A DNA stretch of 50,337 nt from Burkholderiales bacterium (GTDB lineage: Bacteria; Pseudomonadota; Gammaproteobacteria; Burkholderiales; JABEVD01). The notes beneath the pieces are model-generated. The model did no database searches and had not been told where the DNA came from. It was given only the letters and a program-made list of their open reading frames with translations. Below, piece by piece: positions 17,565 through 46,056 of this stretch; the first letter of the stretch is position 1; the number at the start of each line of letters is the position of its first letter. Location: positions 1 through 50,337 of the forward strand of contig JAIELG010000025.1 of the NCBI GenBank assembly GCA_019753155.1, written 5' to 3'. Position numbers and translations under genes: made by a program.

Positions 17565-18640
17565 TTCAGGCGCACATCGGTTGAGGCGCGCTTTCGATCG
17601 CCCAGGAATCTTCTTGCAAAACCCGCCATCTGCAAGGCTGTTCCCATGCAAAAGCCACGCAAGGTTCTCCTGTTGTAAGCGGACAAGCCCCACCTTTCCC
17701 TGCGATGGCTCATCCAGTCCCGCTTGTAATCGTCATCGCCGGTAAGATAGTCGACTTCGTTCACTCTGTCGACATCGATGACATGCCGCATCAACCCGGC
17801 AGTCAGGATCGAACCTGCGGAAAGTTTGGAAAAGCGCTCGTCGTAGGCAAGCTTGTATATCGCGGCGATGCCATCCTTGACAATCCAGACCTGCGCCGCA
17901 ACAGGCTCCGCCCCGATAAAAACCAGCCCCAGTCTGAGCCATCCCTGTTCAGCGCAGGTTCTGATCAAACCGGGCATGAATTCAGGGTAGGGCTCGGGCA
18001 CTTTCCAACTCGAATTGTAGACTTTTTCATAAGCGGCTATCGCTGCATCGATTTCGCCAACTTCAGTGACAATTTCCATCCTGGCCTGGTTCGCGGCATG
18101 GAGCTGTTTTGTCTTGCGCTTTAGCGTATTTTTCAGCTTCGAAGGCAGGGTTTCGAAATATTCGCCGTAAGAGCGCCCATCGAGCTTGAGATACCAGTTG
18201 CCAAAGCAGAAATAAGGCAACACGATCATCCCACAAGACCTGAATGCCTCGGCGCATTGCTCGAAAACGGGCGAATCCGCATCCATCGGGTGCAGATCGA
18301 TCCTGTCCCAACGTTCACTCGAAACTGCTTCAACCAGAGAACCTAGCGCTGCATCATCGGTCTCGCCAAGGATGGGCATGAAAAGCGATGTATAGTAGTT
18401 GGAGACGGCTTCCAGGCGCCGCGAACCCGCCGCAGACATCATGGGAAGCACGCCTTTCACGCCGTTTTCCCCGTTTGCCACGTAAATCCTCAAGCGCGCC
18501 GCTTCAGGCAGTCCGGTTCTGACGAGATTCCGGCACCAGGGCAACGTAAGGAAAAAGCTCGTTTTCCCCGCAGCATCGAACAGCGACTCGCAAGCCTGAG
18601 GCAGATCATCGAGATGCTCGTAAATTGCAAGAGACGACAT
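17561..18640 (-). CDS. FemAB/GNAT-like acyltransferase in the XrtA locus (first of two)
   Basis: A 359-residue protein of the same Acetyltransf_6/FemAB-like family as the gene at 15373-16383 but clearly divergent. Features: FFLTLPWCRNLV near the start, GVLPMMSA, the helix segment GEYFETLPSKLKNTLKRKTKQL, then WLRLGLVFIGAEPVAAQVWIVKDGIAAIYKLAYDERFSKLSAGSILTAGLM, the GNAT-like core. ATG 18640 shares its A with the prsR stop (TAATG), which fixes the start and couples the genes. Both substrate and acyl donor are unknown. Confidence 0.72.
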   Translation of the reverse strand: MSSLAIYEHLDDLPQACESLFDAAGKTSFFLTLPWCRNLVRTGLPEAARLRIYVANGENGVKGVLPMMSAAGSRRLEAVSNYYTSLFMPILGETDDAALGSLVEAVSSERWDRIDLHPMDADSPVFEQCAEAFRSCGMIVLPYFCFGNWYLKLDGRSYGEYFETLPSKLKNTLKRKTKQLHAANQARMEIVTEVGEIDAAIAAYEKVYNSSWKVPEPYPEFMPGLIRTCAEQGWLRLGLVFIGAEPVAAQVWIVKDGIAAIYKLAYDERFSKLSAGSILTAGLMRHVIDVDRVNEVDYLTGDDDYKRDWMSHRRERWGLSAYNRRTLRGFCMGTALQMAGFARRFLGDRKRASTDVRLK

Positions 18641-19992
18641 TATTTCAAGTCGAAGCGATCCAACAGGTGGTACAGGGCTGCGCGGCTCACCCCAAGCAAG
18701 TCCGCAGTCTGGCTGACATTGCCGTTCGTGCGTCCCAGCACCCGGATGATTGCCTTGCGCTCCGCCTCCTCCCTGATCTGCCTGAGATTGATCGGCGCGG
18801 CTTCCTTTTGGGCGGCATCGAGCGAAAGATCGGACAAGGTGATTTGCGTGCTCTCGGCCATGATCACCGCGCGCTTGATGACGTTTTCCATCTGCCGCAC
18901 ATTGCCTGGCCATTCATGACTTTCGATGGCCTCCATGGCATCGGGCTTGAACCCCTTCAATGAACGCTTCTGCTGGCGGCTGAATTTATCCAGGAAAGCA
19001 TGCGCGAGCAGGGCTGCATCCCCCTCGCGCTGCCGCAAGGGGGGGATATTCACGCTGATTTCGCTCAGGCGATAATAGAGATCTTCGCGGAACCTGCCCT
19101 GCTTGATCAAATCCTGAAGATTTTGATGCGTCGCGCACACCACGCGCACATCCACAGGAATCTCGCCCCGCCCGCCCAAACGCTCGATCACCCGTTCCTG
19201 CAGGAATCTCAGTAATTTTGCCTGCAGGGGAAAAGGCAAATCCCCGATTTCATCCAGGAACAAGGTTCCGCCATTGGCATACTCTATGCGCCCGATCGTC
19301 TGCTTGGCAGCTCCGGTAAATGCCCCTTTCTCGAAACCGAACAATTCGCTTTCCAGAAGGTTTTCCGGAATGGCCGCGCAATTGATCGCAACCGAACGCT
19401 TGTCGGCGCGGCTGCTCAACTGATGCAGCGCACGCGCGAGCAATTCCTTGCCCGTTCCGCTTTCCCCAAGAATCAGCACCGTTGCATCCGAAGGCGCCAC
19501 CTTCTCGATGGTCCGGCATACCTTCAGCATCTGCGGATCGCAGGTGATGATGCCCTGCATCGGCGTATCCGATTGCTTGAGGCGCAAGCGGTAATTTTCC
19601 TGCTCCAGCTTATGCAATCTCAGCGCGCGCCCGACGATCAGCGAAAGCATTTCGGACTCGAACGGTTTCTGGTAAAAATCATAAGCGCCTATGCCTATGG
19701 CCCGCACGGCATTGCCCATATCCTGGTTGCCTGTCACGACAATCACCTTCGTTCCGGGCGCAAGCATCAGGATCTGCTCCAGCGTATTGAGTCCCTCGCT
19801 CGCGCCATCAGGATCCGGCGGCAAGCCAAGATCCAGAATCACGACCGATGGCTCGAAGCGGCGGATCTGCGATAGGGCACCCTCCCTGTCGCCGGCGACC
19901 TGGACATCATAGGCATCCAGGCTCCAGCGCAACTGTTTCTGGATGCCCACATCGTCTTCAACCAGCAGCAAAGTATCTTTAGAAGTATTCAC
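18640..19992 (-). CDS. prsR: Sigma-54-dependent response regulator PrsR
   Basis: Response regulator that activates sigma-54 promoters, 450 residues. Receiver domain 1-125 with phospho-acceptor Asp54 (VVILDLGLPP) and Lys109. AAA+ domain with Walker A GESGTGKE at 176-183 and the sigma-54 contact loop GAFTGA at 223-228. C-terminal Fis-type HTH in GNVSQTADLLGVSRAALYHLL. It is coupled to prsK by a four-base overlap, and the pair matches, as I recall, the PEP-CTERM-box regulators found in XrtA genomes. Two sigma-54 promoters upstream of the PEP-CTERM gene at 38896 are its likely targets. Confidence 0.92.
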   Translation of the reverse strand: MNTSKDTLLLVEDDVGIQKQLRWSLDAYDVQVAGDREGALSQIRRFEPSVVILDLGLPPDPDGASEGLNTLEQILMLAPGTKVIVVTGNQDMGNAVRAIGIGAYDFYQKPFESEMLSLIVGRALRLHKLEQENYRLRLKQSDTPMQGIITCDPQMLKVCRTIEKVAPSDATVLILGESGTGKELLARALHQLSSRADKRSVAINCAAIPENLLESELFGFEKGAFTGAAKQTIGRIEYANGGTLFLDEIGDLPFPLQAKLLRFLQERVIERLGGRGEIPVDVRVVCATHQNLQDLIKQGRFREDLYYRLSEISVNIPPLRQREGDAALLAHAFLDKFSRQQKRSLKGFKPDAMEAIESHEWPGNVRQMENVIKRAVIMAESTQITLSDLSLDAAQKEAAPINLRQIREEAERKAIIRVLGRTNGNVSQTADLLGVSRAALYHLLDRFDLK

Positions 19993-22070
19993 ACCCTTAC
20001 CCCAACGCCGACAGCATCTATCTTAACCGAAACGGGAATGATAATCCGAAATGTTGTGCCGCGCCCCAAAGCGCTGACAACTTCCACATCCCCGCCCAAC
20101 TCACGCACATATTCACGGCATTCATGCGCCCCTATCCCCATTCCAGAAGATTTGGTCGAATCGAAGGGACGGAACAGGCGTTCTCGAACGAAGGTTTCAT
20201 CCATGCCCTTCCCATTGTCTTCCACCTCCATGACAGCCCAATTATCCCGGCTCGCCAGACGAATTTCCACCTTCCCGTCATAATGCGTGGCCTCGCATGC
20301 ATTCTGAACGACATGCCCCACAACCCGGCCCAGCCGCTCCCAATCCGCCGACACTGCGACATCCTGATCGGGAAGTTTCAGGGACGGATGCGGTTTGAGC
20401 ACAGACTTGTCCTCGAGGACCGCTTGCAGTAAAGCAGTCAGCGACACTTCGGCAAGCGGCGCCTCACCGCCTTTGCCGCTGCGCAACTGCGACAGCAAAT
20501 GATTCATTTTTTCCACGGAATTTTCGACAGTAATCAGCATATCTTCCTGGAACTCCGGGTTGTCCCTGTATTTTTCCGCGTTGGACAGCATCAGGGAAAG
20601 CTGCGCCACGAGATTTTTCAAGTCATGCACCACGAATGCCGACATCCTGTTGAAGGAATCGAATTGCCTGGCCACCAGCAAGGCATCCGTCGCCTGCTTT
20701 TGTGCAAGGCTGTTCGCCAGTTGATGCCCTGCCGCCTTGAGCAGGTCGCAGGCTTCCCAGTTGAAATGAAATTCGCTTCTGGGCTGCATCAGGATAATGA
20801 ATCCGATCAGCCGCTCATTCAGGATCAATGGCACGACAAGCCAAACCCGCGGCAAATCCAGAAGCCACGCAGGCACTTCCAGATCGCCGTAAAGCTCGCG
20901 GTTGGGAACATACTCGTCCAGATTGATCACCCATTTCGAACGGGTCAGGAAGCGAATCATGGAATCGTCGTCAGGCACCATCACGTCTGGCATGGCGATA
21001 TTCCACCTTGCCGCACAAACGAATCCCCTCTTTTCTTCCCTCATCCATAATGCGCCGGCCGGGCTTTCCACCAAAGCGGCAATCGCCTTGATCGCCACCT
21101 CGTAAATCTGTCGCCCGGGATCGGAAACAGTCAGCGTGTGGGTGAACCTGAGCCATTCCTCCCGATAATCATACTTGTAACTGAAAAAATGCTTGCTCAA
21201 CAATACTTTCAGCTTCGAGCGTATGCTTCCGGAAAAGAAAACCGTCAGCAATACCAGGGATGCGCCGAAAAGGAATGCAATTTGCAAGACGGAACCCCAG
21301 GTTCCGCCGAAAATCCGGATGTAGTAGCCCGCCGCCGCCATCACGATAAGATAAATGCCCGCGCCGAACAGGGATGCCGTATGGAATACGACATGGCGCG
21401 ACATATGGACGCGCAACGACCATTGTGGATTGCGCGCGGCAGAGACCATGATAAGGGGGGCAACTATCGCATTCACGATCCCCCGCGCCGACCAGAGATT
21501 CATGTTGACATGCCGGAAAAGCATGGCTTCCGAATAAAGGAAAAAGTCGTAGGCGAACATTGTCCCGACTGCCATGCACATGAACTTGATCGCCCACTTT
21601 GAATCAGGATGGGTATTCCTGTAAAGCTGCTCGATCAGAACGATCCCGATCACGGCCAGCAACACATGCCCGATGATATTCGCCAGGAAATATTCCGCAT
21701 TGGGGTGCAGATACCCCGACTGGATGAAAATCACGAAAACCAGGAGACCCGCGGAAACCGCGATCGCTATGTATTTGAATGAAAGCAGATCTGAACCGGC
21801 ACTGCCTTCCGCCTGCCTCGCCCCGGTCAGAACATCCCAGACAAAAGCCAGCCAGATCGCGCTGCGCAGGACATCCATCGCTTCCACGGGCAAATCGGGG
21901 CCGTATCCGGCAAAAGCGCTTACGCCTGCCCAGACCGATGTGACAAGGCATGCGGCTGCCAGCAATGCTCCGCGGTAGCGCCCTCGCCAGCCAATGAGCA
22001 GGAACACCCCCAGGAAAGCGAAGACGATCGCAGTCGCAAGATAGCTGACGGTCACTATGGGTATGTTCAT
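19989..22070 (-). CDS. prsK: Membrane sensor histidine kinase PrsK
   Basis: A 693-residue sensor kinase, partner of PrsR. The first 300 residues hold about nine or ten membrane helices. A GAF-like domain follows (about 320-455: SPAGALWMREEKRGFVCAARW ... LPRVWLVVPLILNERLIGFIIL). The phospho-acceptor is His482 in FVVHDLKNLVAQ, a short H box typical of this family. The HATPase domain shows NACEATHYDG (N box), VEDNGKGM (G1), LFRPFDSTKSSGMGIG and GRGTTF. It precedes prsR with a four-base overlap and follows the sugar transferase gene by 13 bases. Confidence 0.92.
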   Translation of the reverse strand: MNIPIVTVSYLATAIVFAFLGVFLLIGWRGRYRGALLAAACLVTSVWAGVSAFAGYGPDLPVEAMDVLRSAIWLAFVWDVLTGARQAEGSAGSDLLSFKYIAIAVSAGLLVFVIFIQSGYLHPNAEYFLANIIGHVLLAVIGIVLIEQLYRNTHPDSKWAIKFMCMAVGTMFAYDFFLYSEAMLFRHVNMNLWSARGIVNAIVAPLIMVSAARNPQWSLRVHMSRHVVFHTASLFGAGIYLIVMAAAGYYIRIFGGTWGSVLQIAFLFGASLVLLTVFFSGSIRSKLKVLLSKHFFSYKYDYREEWLRFTHTLTVSDPGRQIYEVAIKAIAALVESPAGALWMREEKRGFVCAARWNIAMPDVMVPDDDSMIRFLTRSKWVINLDEYVPNRELYGDLEVPAWLLDLPRVWLVVPLILNERLIGFIILMQPRSEFHFNWEACDLLKAAGHQLANSLAQKQATDALLVARQFDSFNRMSAFVVHDLKNLVAQLSLMLSNAEKYRDNPEFQEDMLITVENSVEKMNHLLSQLRSGKGGEAPLAEVSLTALLQAVLEDKSVLKPHPSLKLPDQDVAVSADWERLGRVVGHVVQNACEATHYDGKVEIRLASRDNWAVMEVEDNGKGMDETFVRERLFRPFDSTKSSGMGIGAHECREYVRELGGDVEVVSALGRGTTFRIIIPVSVKIDAVGVGVRV

Positions 22071-38612: not shown

Positions 38613-38631
38613 GTGTCAGGAAACTTTACAC
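38613..38631 (+). promoter_or_regulatory. Upstream palindromic box, copy 1 (putative PrsR site)
   Basis: GTGTCAGGAAACTTTACAC, a 19-base imperfect inverted repeat with GTGT/ACAC ends. It starts 83 bases before the -24 GG of the first sigma-54 promoter. An equivalent box has the same relation to the second promoter. Assignment to PrsR is inference. Confidence 0.6.
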
Positions 38632-38694
38632 TTGCCCCATCAAGATTTTCAATAAAAATAAAGTAATCTTTAATAAACATATGCATAACAAACG

Positions 38695-38710
38695 TGGCAC
38701 GCATGTTGCT
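38695..38710 (+). promoter_or_regulatory. Sigma-54 promoter 1 of the PEP-CTERM gene
   Basis: TGGCACGCATGTTGCT fits the RpoN consensus TGGCACG-N4-TTGCW at every position, with GG (38696-38697) and GC (38708-38709) exactly ten bases apart. Predicted start near 38720, giving an untranslated leader of about 175 bases for the gene at 38896. Confidence 0.85.
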
Positions 38711-38742
38711 GTATAAGGCCCAGTACCGCAGGAAACAGTGAA

Positions 38743-38761
38743 GTGTCGGATTTATATACAC
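38743..38761 (+). promoter_or_regulatory. Upstream palindromic box, copy 2 (putative PrsR site)
   Basis: GTGTCGGATTTATATACAC, 19 bases, same GTGTC start and ACAC end as copy 1, placed 130 bases downstream of it. It starts 83 bases before the -24 GG of the second sigma-54 promoter. Confidence 0.6.
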
Positions 38762-38824
38762 TGCGAACTGCATGCATTGCGCACATGGAATACGTTTTTA
38801 TTGTTATCAGGTAGTTACGCAAAC

Positions 38825-38840
38825 TGGCACGATTACTGCT
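38825..38840 (+). promoter_or_regulatory. Sigma-54 promoter 2 of the PEP-CTERM gene
   Basis: TGGCACGATTACTGCT matches the RpoN consensus except for C in place of the first T of TTGC; the GG (38826-38827) and GC (38838-38839) spacing of ten is exact. Predicted start near 38851, about 45 bases before the ATG. Confidence 0.8.
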
Positions 38841-38895
38841 TAATCAATTGCAGAATTTTTGAATTTAACTTGAATCTCTTTAGAGGACTGCTCAA

Positions 38896-39657
38896 ATGAA
38901 GAAAATGACCATGGCGCTGCTCGCAATCGGTTTTACCGGTTTCTCGGCAATTGCCTCCGCCAACACCATCAGCTACACCAGCAACACGATCGCGGATGCC
39001 GTGAATAACTGGAGCAACACCCTGTCGCTCACGAAATTCAACACCAACCTCGGAACGCTGACCGGCATCACCTTCACGCTCTACGGCACTGCGCAGGGTT
39101 ACGTGTACGTGCAGAACATCAACACGACCGTTACCGCGACCGCAACGCCTACGGTTTCTTCGCAGATCACCCTGAAGGATCCCGGCAGCCTGGCCACTCT
39201 GGTCGTGACCACCCCGACCCTGGCTTCCGGCCTCGTCAGCCTGACCACCAAGATAAACGCGACCGGAGTTTACGGCGGGACCGATTCGGCGCAGCTCGCT
39301 GTGGGTACCGTAAGCACCCCAGTCACCCCCGGCGTCAACGTCACCACGGCGCCTGCCGCGACGGCGAACGTTGTTTCCGCATACAACACCGCATCGCCGC
39401 TCTGGTCATACATCACGAGCCAGTTCACGGCTGCCGGGGTTGCAAGCGCACTGCTGCCGACTTCCGCAGTGGGCCTCACCACCGCCAACCTTTCCGGAGG
39501 CACGCAGAACCTGACGACGCAAACTTCTTCGAGTGCGTATGCAACGGTGACTTACTCCTACAATCTCCCGACCGTGATTCCCGAACCCGCAACCCTGCTT
39601 CTGATGGGCGTGGGCGTTCTCGGCATGGGATTCGCAGCGACCCGCCGCAAAGCCTGA
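38896..39657 (+). CDS. PEP-CTERM sorting-domain protein (exosortase substrate)
   Basis: Secreted protein of 253 residues and likely XrtA substrate. It has a signal peptide MKKMTMALLAIGFTGFSA with cleavage after ASA. A long Thr/Ser/Val/Ala-rich body of low complexity follows, poor in charged residues and with many possible O-glycosylation sites. The C-terminal PEP-CTERM signal is VIPEPATLLLMGVG (PEP at 229-231), then a hydrophobic helix and the basic end ATRRKA. AGAGGA lies eight bases before the ATG. No enzyme domain is recognisable. It is preceded by two sigma-54 promoters and followed by a strong terminator, so it is a single-gene unit. Confidence 0.93.
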   Translation: MKKMTMALLAIGFTGFSAIASANTISYTSNTIADAVNNWSNTLSLTKFNTNLGTLTGITFTLYGTAQGYVYVQNINTTVTATATPTVSSQITLKDPGSLATLVVTTPTLASGLVSLTTKINATGVYGGTDSAQLAVGTVSTPVTPGVNVTTAPAATANVVSAYNTASPLWSYITSQFTAAGVASALLPTSAVGLTTANLSGGTQNLTTQTSSSAYATVTYSYNLPTVIPEPATLLLMGVGVLGMGFAATRRKA

Positions 39658-39671
39658 GTCCGGCAGTTCCC

Positions 39672-39704
39672 AAAACCCCTTGCATAAACTGCAAGGGGTT
39701 TTTT
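39672..39704 (+). terminator. Rho-independent terminator of the PEP-CTERM gene
   Basis: CCCCTTGCA-TAAAC-TGCAAGGGG forms a perfect nine-pair stem followed by TTTTTT, 15 bases after the stop codon. Confidence 0.92.
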
Positions 39705-40943: not shown

Positions 40944-41755
40944 TGGAATTCACGGAAACCGCACTGGCATTCGAGTGCAAGGATGACAGCCTGACGGGAA
41001 TAGTATCCCTTCCGGAATCGCCGCTTGTCACAGGCGTGCTCATCATCGTGGGCGGCCCGCAATACCGCATCGGCAGCCACAGGCAGTTCACGCTCCTGGC
41101 GCGGGATCTCGCATGCGCAGGCATACCTTCGATGCGCTTCGATTACCGGGGCATGGGGGATAGCGAGGGGGATTTGCATACATTCGAAAATGTCCGCGAA
41201 GACATCCGCGCGGCGGTCGATGCGTTCTTCGCGCAATGCCCCGGACTCGAAAAGGTCGTACTCTGGGGATTGTGCGATGCGGCTTCCGCAGCCGTCTTTT
41301 ACGCTCATCAGGATCCCAGGGTATGCGGCCTCGTACTCGTCAATCCTTGGATCAGAACGGCGGAAAGCCGGGCCAGGACCCAACTGAAACACTATTACTT
41401 CTCCCGCATGACCGATCCCGCTCTGTGGCGAAAACTGCTTGCAGGCGCATTCGATTTCCGCGCCTCATTCCGGGATTTCTTCAAAACCGCATCCGCACTC
41501 GGGGCCCCTGAACAGAACGCATCGCTGCCTGACAGGATGAAGCATGGACTGGAGCAATTCTCCGGAAAAATCCTGCTCATCCTGAGCGGAAACGATCTGA
41601 CCGCCAGGGAATTCGACGACATGACGCAATCCTCGGCATCGTGGCGAGAGTTGCTGAAAAAGGCGGAGCGCCGGGATTTACCGGAAGCCGATCACACTTT
41701 TTCATGCCGCCTCTGGCGGGACCGGGTGTCGGCATGGACCGTACAATGGGTATAG
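40943..41755 (+). CDS. Alpha/beta hydrolase, exosortase A-associated (hydrolase 1 type)
   Basis: A 270-residue alpha/beta hydrolase: GVLIIVGGPQYRIGSHRQF near the start, MRFDYRGMGDSEGD, then the elbow GLCDA at 109-113 with Cys111 as apparent nucleophile, and a late His in LPEADHTFS. A Cys-His-Asp triad suits a thioesterase or acyltransferase acting on ACP- or CoA-bound acyl groups. It shares a base with the upstream hydrolase stop. The family assignment (TIGR03100) is from memory. Confidence 0.84.
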   Translation: MEFTETALAFECKDDSLTGIVSLPESPLVTGVLIIVGGPQYRIGSHRQFTLLARDLACAGIPSMRFDYRGMGDSEGDLHTFENVREDIRAAVDAFFAQCPGLEKVVLWGLCDAASAAVFYAHQDPRVCGLVLVNPWIRTAESRARTQLKHYYFSRMTDPALWRKLLAGAFDFRASFRDFFKTASALGAPEQNASLPDRMKHGLEQFSGKILLILSGNDLTAREFDDMTQSSASWRELLKKAERRDLPEADHTFSCRLWRDRVSAWTVQWV

Positions 41756-44800: not shown

Positions 44801-45964
44801 TTAAATACCTTTATCTTTTATAAATTGTTTAATTGTATCAATTTGACTCTGGAATGTTCTGATTTCGCGCTCAACAGAACTCTTATACTGCAATGAATCC
44901 AGCTTCCCGACATGCTCTGCAAGCCTATTTTCGAGAGACTGGAGAGATTTAAAGATGCTTGATGCGCCATCTTTGCTCAACTGAACTTCGAGTTGTGCAG
45001 CGAACTTAGCCCCCTTCCCCTCGACGCCTCCGACAATGCCTATGGCAGAATCGCCTGCGGACATTCCCCATTGTGCCGCAGTGCATCCGCCGTCGTTTAG
45101 ACAAGTACCGAGCTTGTACCCAGGCCAATAGTCGTACAGGGCCTGTTCCAGTTTCGAGGTGCATGCGCCAGCAGTGGAACAGTAGTTGAACAGGTACCCG
45201 AACGCTGCCGTTTCCGCCCCGTTGGCGAACTTCCCGCCGCCGATCACCGAAACAGTGCCGCCCGCCACCATTGTAGCTACGAAGTTGCCGCCCGTAGCGT
45301 TCGTCGCCCACTTTCCGGCTACTGCGGAGAATGCGCCCCTACCGCAGCCGCCGCTGCCGATCTCGCCGCTCAGGCAACCCGCAAAAGCATGAGCGGCATA
45401 GCGCTCGAAGCTTGCCGGGTCACCCATGCCGCCCGCCCAGCCGAACATCGCGCCGCTTGCCGCACCTTGCAGCCCCGCATTCAGGTCTCCGCCGGAACCG
45501 ACAACCCCCGCGGCAAATCCACCGGCGGTACCTGCGGCAATGCCACCCCAGGCAGCCCCGCTAGCCGTGCAACTCGCCCAGGCACTGCCTGACACTAGAC
45601 CGCCAGTATAATATGCCACAGCAATCGAAATGGCTGTTCTTCCCACATCGCTGTGCCATGTGTCTTTCCACGCGCTCTGTACTGAGTGGAACACTCCGCC
45701 TATCGCATCGCCGACGCCCCCAAACACATCCCCCAGGAAGGAGTACCCGCTCGGATCGATCCCCCCCATCGGGTCGTTCCATGCATAGGCATAGCGGTTA
45801 TAGCTCTGCAGGTTGTAGGGCGACTGGATGGAGGGATCGGCGCTCATGAACCGCCCCAGCAGCGGATCGTACATCCGCCCGTTCATGTTGATCACCCCCA
45901 CCTCGTCCAGCATCTCGTGGCCCGTATACCCGTGACGCGCCGTCACCCCCACGATCGTGTTCAT
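44801..45964 (-). CDS. Rhs C-terminal tip 1 (orphan cassette)
   Basis: C-terminal end of an Rhs polymorphic toxin without the YD-repeat body. From ATG 45964 it begins MNTIVGVTARHGYTGHEMLDE, then the Rhs core end NGRMYDPLLGRFMSADPSIQS. A Gly/Ala-rich linker follows, then the segment GGTASVIGGGKFANGAETAA (shared with the other two tips), then a unique tail of about 130 residues starting FNYCSTAGACTSKLEQ and ending SQIDTIKQFIKDKGI, helical and of unknown activity. A TTG at 45988 would add eight residues. As it has no body of its own, it is probably silent until recombined onto a full rhs gene. Confidence 0.8.
   Translation of the reverse strand: MNTIVGVTARHGYTGHEMLDEVGVINMNGRMYDPLLGRFMSADPSIQSPYNLQSYNRYAYAWNDPMGGIDPSGYSFLGDVFGGVGDAIGGVFHSVQSAWKDTWHSDVGRTAISIAVAYYTGGLVSGSAWASCTASGAAWGGIAAGTAGGFAAGVVGSGGDLNAGLQGAASGAMFGWAGGMGDPASFERYAAHAFAGCLSGEIGSGGCGRGAFSAVAGKWATNATGGNFVATMVAGGTVSVIGGGKFANGAETAAFGYLFNYCSTAGACTSKLEQALYDYWPGYKLGTCLNDGGCTAAQWGMSAGDSAIGIVGGVEGKGAKFAAQLEVQLSKDGASSIFKSLQSLENRLAEHVGKLDSLQYKSSVEREIRTFQSQIDTIKQFIKDKGI
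45801..45961 (-). repeat. Rhs core repeat, copy 1
   Basis: DNA coding the Rhs core end. It is essentially identical to 48993-49118 over about 125 bases, and to 50222-50337 over the part seen, including the run-up to the tip (TAGCTCTGCAGGTTGTAGGG on the plus strand). Confidence 0.85.
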
Positions 45965-46056
45965 CCAGAAATGGTGGTCTGTCCCCAATACTCCTGCAAT
46001 ACCCCCTAAAAAGCTGTCAATACACTAAACCGCTATCCGCATAATATCTATTACGC

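Follow-up and report, generated by a model that had tools for sequence, protein, structure and literature searches.

Haft et al (2006; PMC1569441) described a box, a spacer and a sigma-54 motif in front of proteobacterial PEP-CTERM genes, with PrsR as the expected binder of the box. As the text of that paper has it, the box (motif 1) is 17 nt long, ends in TTTACA and is sometimes repeated, the spacer has a mean length of 62.8 (SD 10.6, range 32-92), motif 2 carries the -24 GG and -12 GC, and, of 167 proteobacterial PEP-CTERM genes, 99 have the site upstream. In Aquincola tertiaricarbonis RN12, the PEP-CTERM gene pepA needs RpoN1, and its transcription start was mapped after TGGCAC/CTGCTT (PMC9850573). 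A similar order of elements is described for the Desulfovibrio orp2 promoter, an example of the IHF-assisted sigma-54 promoters, which has a palindromic activator site at -88, an IHF site at -43 and a sigma-54 site at -11 (PMC3897727).

The locus considered here belongs to a Burkholderiales bacterium and lies in a window of 50,337 nucleotides, by which we mean the whole stretch of DNA that was analysed. In it, the entire unit of box and promoter, which we call a module, occurs twice before a single PEP-CTERM gene.

Results

Two modules before one PEP-CTERM gene

The two modules and the gene that follows them comprise these features:

38613-38631, plus strand: box 1, GTGTCAGGAAACTTTACAC; predicted PrsR site, motif 1 of Haft et al in the TTTACA form
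38695-38709, plus strand: predicted sigma-54 promoter P1, TGGCACGCATGTTGC; GG at 38696
38743-38761, plus strand: box 2, GTGTCGGATTTATATACAC; predicted PrsR site in the TATACA form
38805-38817, plus strand: IHF-consensus-like site of module 2, TATCAGGTAGTTA; 8/9 to WATCAANNNNTTR, at GG-21
38825-38839, plus strand: predicted sigma-54 promoter P2, TGGCACGATTACTGC; GG at 38826
38882-38887, plus strand: AGAGGA, likely ribosome-binding site, read from the sequence
38896-39657, plus strand: PEP-CTERM protein with choice-of-anchor E domain, 253 aa; NF033208 and TIGR02595 over cut-off
39672-39702, plus strand: terminator-like hairpin just past the 38896 gene

An earlier note on this DNA had placed GTGTC-N10-ACAC boxes at 38613 and 38743 and the GG of sigma-54 promoters at 38696 and 38826, each box starting 83 bases before its GG and the whole having a period of 130. 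These positions and distances are correct, and the two boxes are the only exact GTGTC-N10-ACAC matches in the window. P1 has 0 mismatches to TGGCAC-N5-TTGC and P2 has 1. The predicted transcription starts, at about 38721 for P1 and about 38851 for P2, would give leaders of 175 and 45 bases, and box 2 would fall within the P1 transcript, at about +23 to +41. Compared with 208 relatives, box 1 stands at the 33rd percentile of box strength and box 2 at only the 4th; both promoters are good, P1 at the 97th percentile of relatives and P2 at the 71st. The weakness of box 2 counts against a PrsR/sigma-54 reading and against equal strength of the two modules, and the lack of a clear bend site in module 1 likewise counts against equal strength. 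A palindrome, TGCGAACTGCATGCATTGCGCA (38762-38783), starts directly after box 2.

With one mismatch allowed, the box occurs 10 times in the window against 4.7 expected, with 4 of 100 shuffles reaching 10, and 192 times in the whole genome against 201 for the pattern read backward. The box alone is weak evidence, and the signal resides in the combination of box and promoter. The lack of enrichment of the one-mismatch box in the genome would suit an origin of the motif matches by chance, without function, but the pattern of box, spacer and promoter has 5 matches in the whole genome where its backward control has 0, and backward controls total 6 against 106 matches listed for 150 genomes of the order, which leaves chance with next to no credibility.

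The DNA between the elements, which had been described as dissimilar in the two modules, is indeed so: modules 1 and 2 align no better than unrelated modules do (rank 97 and 100 against 119 other modules). Without gaps, their spacers agree at 24 of 64 positions, against 17.0 +/- 3.3 in shuffles. A recent duplication was rejected, modules 1 and 2 being without similarity outside the elements.

The product of the 38896 gene scores 22.4 bits with TIGR02595 (cut-off 16), and 286 bases separate the upstream stop codon from its ATG. The genes next upstream of the module region encode a glycosyltransferase-like protein and an XrtA amidotransferase. The hairpin fits a one-gene transcript, although this evidence is weak because 3 such hairpins were found where shuffles led us to expect 2.4.

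Box-promoter distances across genomes

A module precedes nine of this genome's 15 PEP-CTERM genes and is absent from the other six; the 10 modules have box-promoter distances (d) of 82, 82, 82, 83, 83, 85, 96, 104, 115 and 126. Four of the 10 promoters carry 2 mismatches each, and at distance 115 the box is poor. These distances suggested steps of one helix turn, and other genomes were therefore tested. With a strict module pattern and a distance of 70-100, the order had matches in 43 out of 150 genomes and the class in 111 out of 370; the two sets were searched under identical pattern limits, and the backward controls gave 6 matches in each. The distance sets comprise 106 listed matches for the order (7 of them from this genome) and 135 among the matches listed for the class, with already-counted genomes left out.

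Among the matches listed, the order and class sets each peak near 71, 82 and 93, with almost nothing between. R is 0.68 for the order and 0.70 for the class (among the matches listed), whereas the largest values in 2000 smoothed nulls are 0.40 and 0.38. Of the 234 modules that the listed matches contribute from 102 other genomes, 209 fall within 2 of 71.5, 82 or 93, a criterion under which 14 of 31 positions qualify by position alone, and when one module per genome is taken (again among the matches listed) the on-tooth share averages 85 percent. A search at 100-130 gave 69 rows, with 9 for the backward control, and clusters at 104.3, 115.7 and 125.7; six of the 65 rows above 100 fall between teeth, and six or seven rows of this search may be chance. 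Regression over the six teeth gives a spacing of 10.9 bases, about one DNA turn. Looping work puts the helical repeat in vivo near 11 bases. Two of this genome's own distances, 85 and 96, are 3 bases off a tooth, which we count against the explanation that we favour below.

The earlier note had attributed the equal spacing of the two modules to selection, but selection on this pair is not needed. Because the box-promoter distance is quantised throughout the family and 83 lies on a tooth, equal spacing requires no special link between the copies; a random pair from 241 modules (among the matches listed) has equal d with a probability of 0.092 and differs by at most 1 with a probability of 0.25. 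Equal spacing was therefore rejected as the mark of a special pair, 83 being a common family value.

Three boxes of this genome (C1:179935, C4:88826 and C58:9341; L006, L009 and L015) are directly preceded by a common flank, GTCACTCGCGAAA. The C4 and C58 boxes are without a promoter at a comb distance, the C58 box is followed by a long TGCC repeat, and C4 and C13 have additional upstream sequence in common. Flank and box together are perhaps a dispersed repeat carrying a PrsR box.

PrsR and the genes behind the modules

The window encodes both partners of the predicted regulatory pair:

18640-19992, minus strand: PrsR, predicted activator; TIGR02915, 732.5 bits (cut-off 502.6)
19989-22070, minus strand: PrsK, predicted sensor kinase; TIGR02916, 854.4 bits (cut-off 300)

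PrsR has a receiver, an AAA+ domain and a C-terminal helix-turn-helix, and the GAFTGA loop that had been ascribed to it is found in the translation, within the AAA+ domain. PrsK and PrsR had also been called adjacent to the gene, which they are not: they share the XrtA locus with it at a distance of about 17-20 kb. In the window, a TPR gene at 41641 scores 26.7 bits, far below the PrsT cut-off of 312.2. A reading frame at 44801-45988, beside the exosortase locus, has an Rhs repeat-associated core domain.

In the 75 genomes common to the module search and the PrsR search, a module was matched in 17 of the 21 with PrsR (TIGR cut-off) compared with 6 of the 54 without (p = 1.3e-8). Among the six are G013, which has four matches, and the congeneric G008; both these six genomes and the four that have PrsR and no module match count against the PrsR reading. 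The proposal that the boxes are candidate PrsR sites draws support from this co-occurrence, from the GAFTGA of PrsR and from the prior proposal (Haft et al, 2006), and PrsR is accordingly the best-supported candidate for their binder.

Enrichment of modules before PEP-CTERM genes, which had been put forward as a check, is found in other genomes. At least 23 of 50 ORFs after the modules match one PEP-CTERM-type family; 23 match each of two such families and 19 match TIGR02595 itself, counts that are a lower bound with a crude choice of ORF. A PEP-CTERM-like tail ends 24 of 57 reading frames called after modules, with 23 of 51 for on-comb modules versus 0 of 5 for off-comb modules (p = 0.07). 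At two loci (L094 and L095), modules precede membrane-like proteins of about 160 residues with similar ends, ...LWPGESLSFILL and ...IWPGPYIPFIFIPF, which are not PEP-CTERM proteins and are perhaps another member of the PrsR regulon.

An IHF-like third element

When 35 modules of tooth 82 are aligned on the GG, a second conserved block appears at GG-33 to -21 with the sequence YAA-N4-TTGATW. This sequence and its complement, WATCAA-N4-TTR, are both in print as IHF consensus, and the related consensus WATCARxxxxTTR is given for IHF in PMC3897727. We scanned 229 distinct modules, a number reached by adding 160 short stretches, and counted agreement at 8/9 or better as a hit. The 119 modules of tooth 82 have 51 hits where shuffled spacers give 8.1, and 43 of the 51 lie at GG-34 to -32; tooth 93 has 30 against 3.8, with 21 at GG-34 and -33, and tooth 71.5 has 10 against 1.0, with 6 at GG-33 and -32. 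In the other orientation, tooth 82 has 39 hits against 10.1, and 19 of these are at GG-21 and -20. In teeth 104 and above there are 6 scattered hits in 15 modules and none in 7, numbers too small to interpret.

The constant offset of the hits from the GG across teeth indicates that the element is fixed on the promoter and that the box moves by turns. Off the comb, 15 modules have 6 hits against 1.4 expected, and therefore some off-comb modules are real. Of 208 on-comb modules in other genomes, 155 agree at 7/9 or better at the expected position in one orientation. Module 2 has 8/9 in the second orientation at GG-21, a place that matches its relatives; module 1 reaches at best 6/9 in the usual place, which also weighs against the favoured explanation. 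From its sequence, the third element would be a binding site for IHF. Upstream of the box, 57 aligned flanks contain nothing above 0.16 bits that could mark a conserved second site.

Doubled modules and the ortholog

Doubling was sought with a strict pattern of box, promoter core and second box, by which other geometries would be missed. Matches came from 3 genomes among 399 of the order and from 3 among 370 of the class, which makes five different genomes out of 764, and under this strict pattern two full modules stand before one gene only here. The other four tandem matches, when read through, have two boxes and no second good promoter. One of them (G070, L107) has boxes 143 apart before another choice-of-anchor E PEP-CTERM gene and a promoter-like remnant, lacking the -12 GC, at 79, where the first promoter would be. 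In another genome (G074, L108), the next good sigma-54 promoter follows 268 and 403 bases after two boxes that are 135 apart, well outside the usual distance. A pair 312 bases apart in G013 was rejected as a tandem, since it belongs to two separate small reading frames. At this locus (L109; G013:C10:46000-50500) the modules have d of 71 and 70 and each precedes its own tiny reading frame, of about 25 and 70 residues, membrane-like and without PEP-CTERM, in a genome without PrsR above cut-off.

A survey of choice-of-anchor E genes gave 11 matches, from 9 of the 200 genomes searched. The idea that these genes generally conserve tandem modules was rejected, only the window gene having two boxes and two good promoters. 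Among 57 modules, 5 have an upstream box within 420 bases, none with a good promoter at comb distance. The 38896 gene has an ortholog in 2 of 59 other genomes searched, both congeneric (G002 and G005). In G005 only 31 bases lie between the contig end and the gene. The G002 ortholog has a single module, which ranks 1 against 119 others in its match to module 1; with module 2, its full rank is 5 and its spacer rank 3.

Discussion

Most likely, with a probability of about 0.7, both modules are PrsR/sigma-54 promoters of the known kind, each of them one unit of the known PrsK-PrsR-RpoN regulon. RNA polymerase with sigma-54 would wait at the -24/-12 promoter, and phosphorylated PrsR would bind the box, contact this polymerase about eight helix turns away and open the promoter, while a bend near GG-33 to GG-20, most likely made by IHF, would close the loop. 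The box would need to be separated from the promoter by an integral number of turns because the spacer, as we propose, is short and stiff. Two such units in series would yield starts at about 38721 and 38851, and it is possible that the gene has two separately firing promoters. What the analysis shows are the elements, their distances, the comb, the fixed third motif and the co-occurrence with PrsR; binding by PrsR, RpoN and IHF, and firing of both promoters, are what we infer.

A more far-reaching reading, to which we give somewhat less than even odds, is a rigid three-part PrsR complex in which the IHF bend is fixed on the sigma-54 promoter and the box shifts by whole turns, so that the comb would read the DNA turn in vivo (about 10.9 bases). 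The doubled module would then be a serial version of this complex, with box 2 driving P2 while standing in the way of P1. It could also be that only one promoter matters, with P2 serving the gene and with box 1 and P1 a remnant, or box 1 an auxiliary enhancer for P2. P2 has a leader of normal length and an IHF-like site where module 1 has none that is clear, and boxes are repeated elsewhere without a second good promoter, both at the 5 of 57 upstream boxes and in the four tandem matches; yet P1 is the better promoter, box 1 is the better box, and the single module of the ortholog is best matched by module 1, so that we consider this account possible but rather doubtful. The same ortholog bears on the possibility that one module was duplicated in tandem long ago and that the duplication has been retained, or is decaying, with no role of its own, as the ortholog's one module matches module 1 best and module 2 fairly well. 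Such a duplication is less likely than not, since modules 1 and 2 are alike only in their elements (rank about 97) and yet all four elements are intact.

The location of box 2 within the P1 transcript leaves room for a roadblock. Box 2 might have a dual role, as enhancer of P2 and as obstacle to P1, with rising PrsR shifting the start from P1 to P2, and the weaker box 2 would fill later, as such a switch would have it. The argument in its favour is one of position; no precedent was found in open PubMed Central papers and the P1 leader fold is ordinary, no better than shuffles (z +0.40), and we regard this dual role as improbable.

Modules of this kind were already described in 2006 (Haft et al, 2006). 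Neither the comb nor the fixed IHF-like site is in the text of that paper, in which a word search finds neither 'phas' nor 'IHF' and quantised spacing is not described. In open PubMed Central papers we found neither a comb nor an IHF site described for PEP-CTERM promoters and, since 2006, no test of PrsR binding to the module. Together, the comb and the fixed site turn a loose succession of box, spacer and promoter into a precise geometry, which predicts the box shifts that kill or keep activity and separates real modules from chance matches. A comb present naturally in many species also offers an unusual gauge of how DNA is twisted inside cells, and the doubled module provides one gene with which to distinguish serial activation, a roadblock and a remnant.

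Compared with the site of Haft et al as their text gives it, box 1 ends exactly in TTTACA and box 2 in TATACA, with one change; the spacer is 64 in both window modules, motif 2 is present with its -24 GG and -12 GC, the intergenic region is long, a single PEP-CTERM gene follows and PrsK/PrsR are in the genome. The share of PEP-CTERM genes with a module in this genome, 9 of 15, resembles the 99 of 167 reported there. In contrast, only motif 1 is repeated in that description whereas the window doubles the whole unit of box and promoter, and spacing is given there as a mean and SD, with neither comb nor IHF site in the text. The pepA promoter, in the published description, resembles P2 closely in its -24 TGGCAC and -12 CTGCTT and has a predicted enhancer upstream, but it is a single promoter, and the dependence shown for it is on RpoN rather than on PrsR. 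The layout described for orp2, with its activator site, IHF site and sigma-54 site, nearly matches that of a module, although its activator is DVU2106 and its IHF was tested by gel shift and mutants, where IHF is inferred here. That the face of the helix matters for activation of this type is an old idea, and Minchin's work of 1989 on the Klebsiella nifLA promoter reportedly found NtrC-type activation to depend on it. The modules would share this helix-face dependence with nifLA, but that was an experiment on one promoter, and what is seen here is a naturally occurring comb that spans many promoters and genomes.
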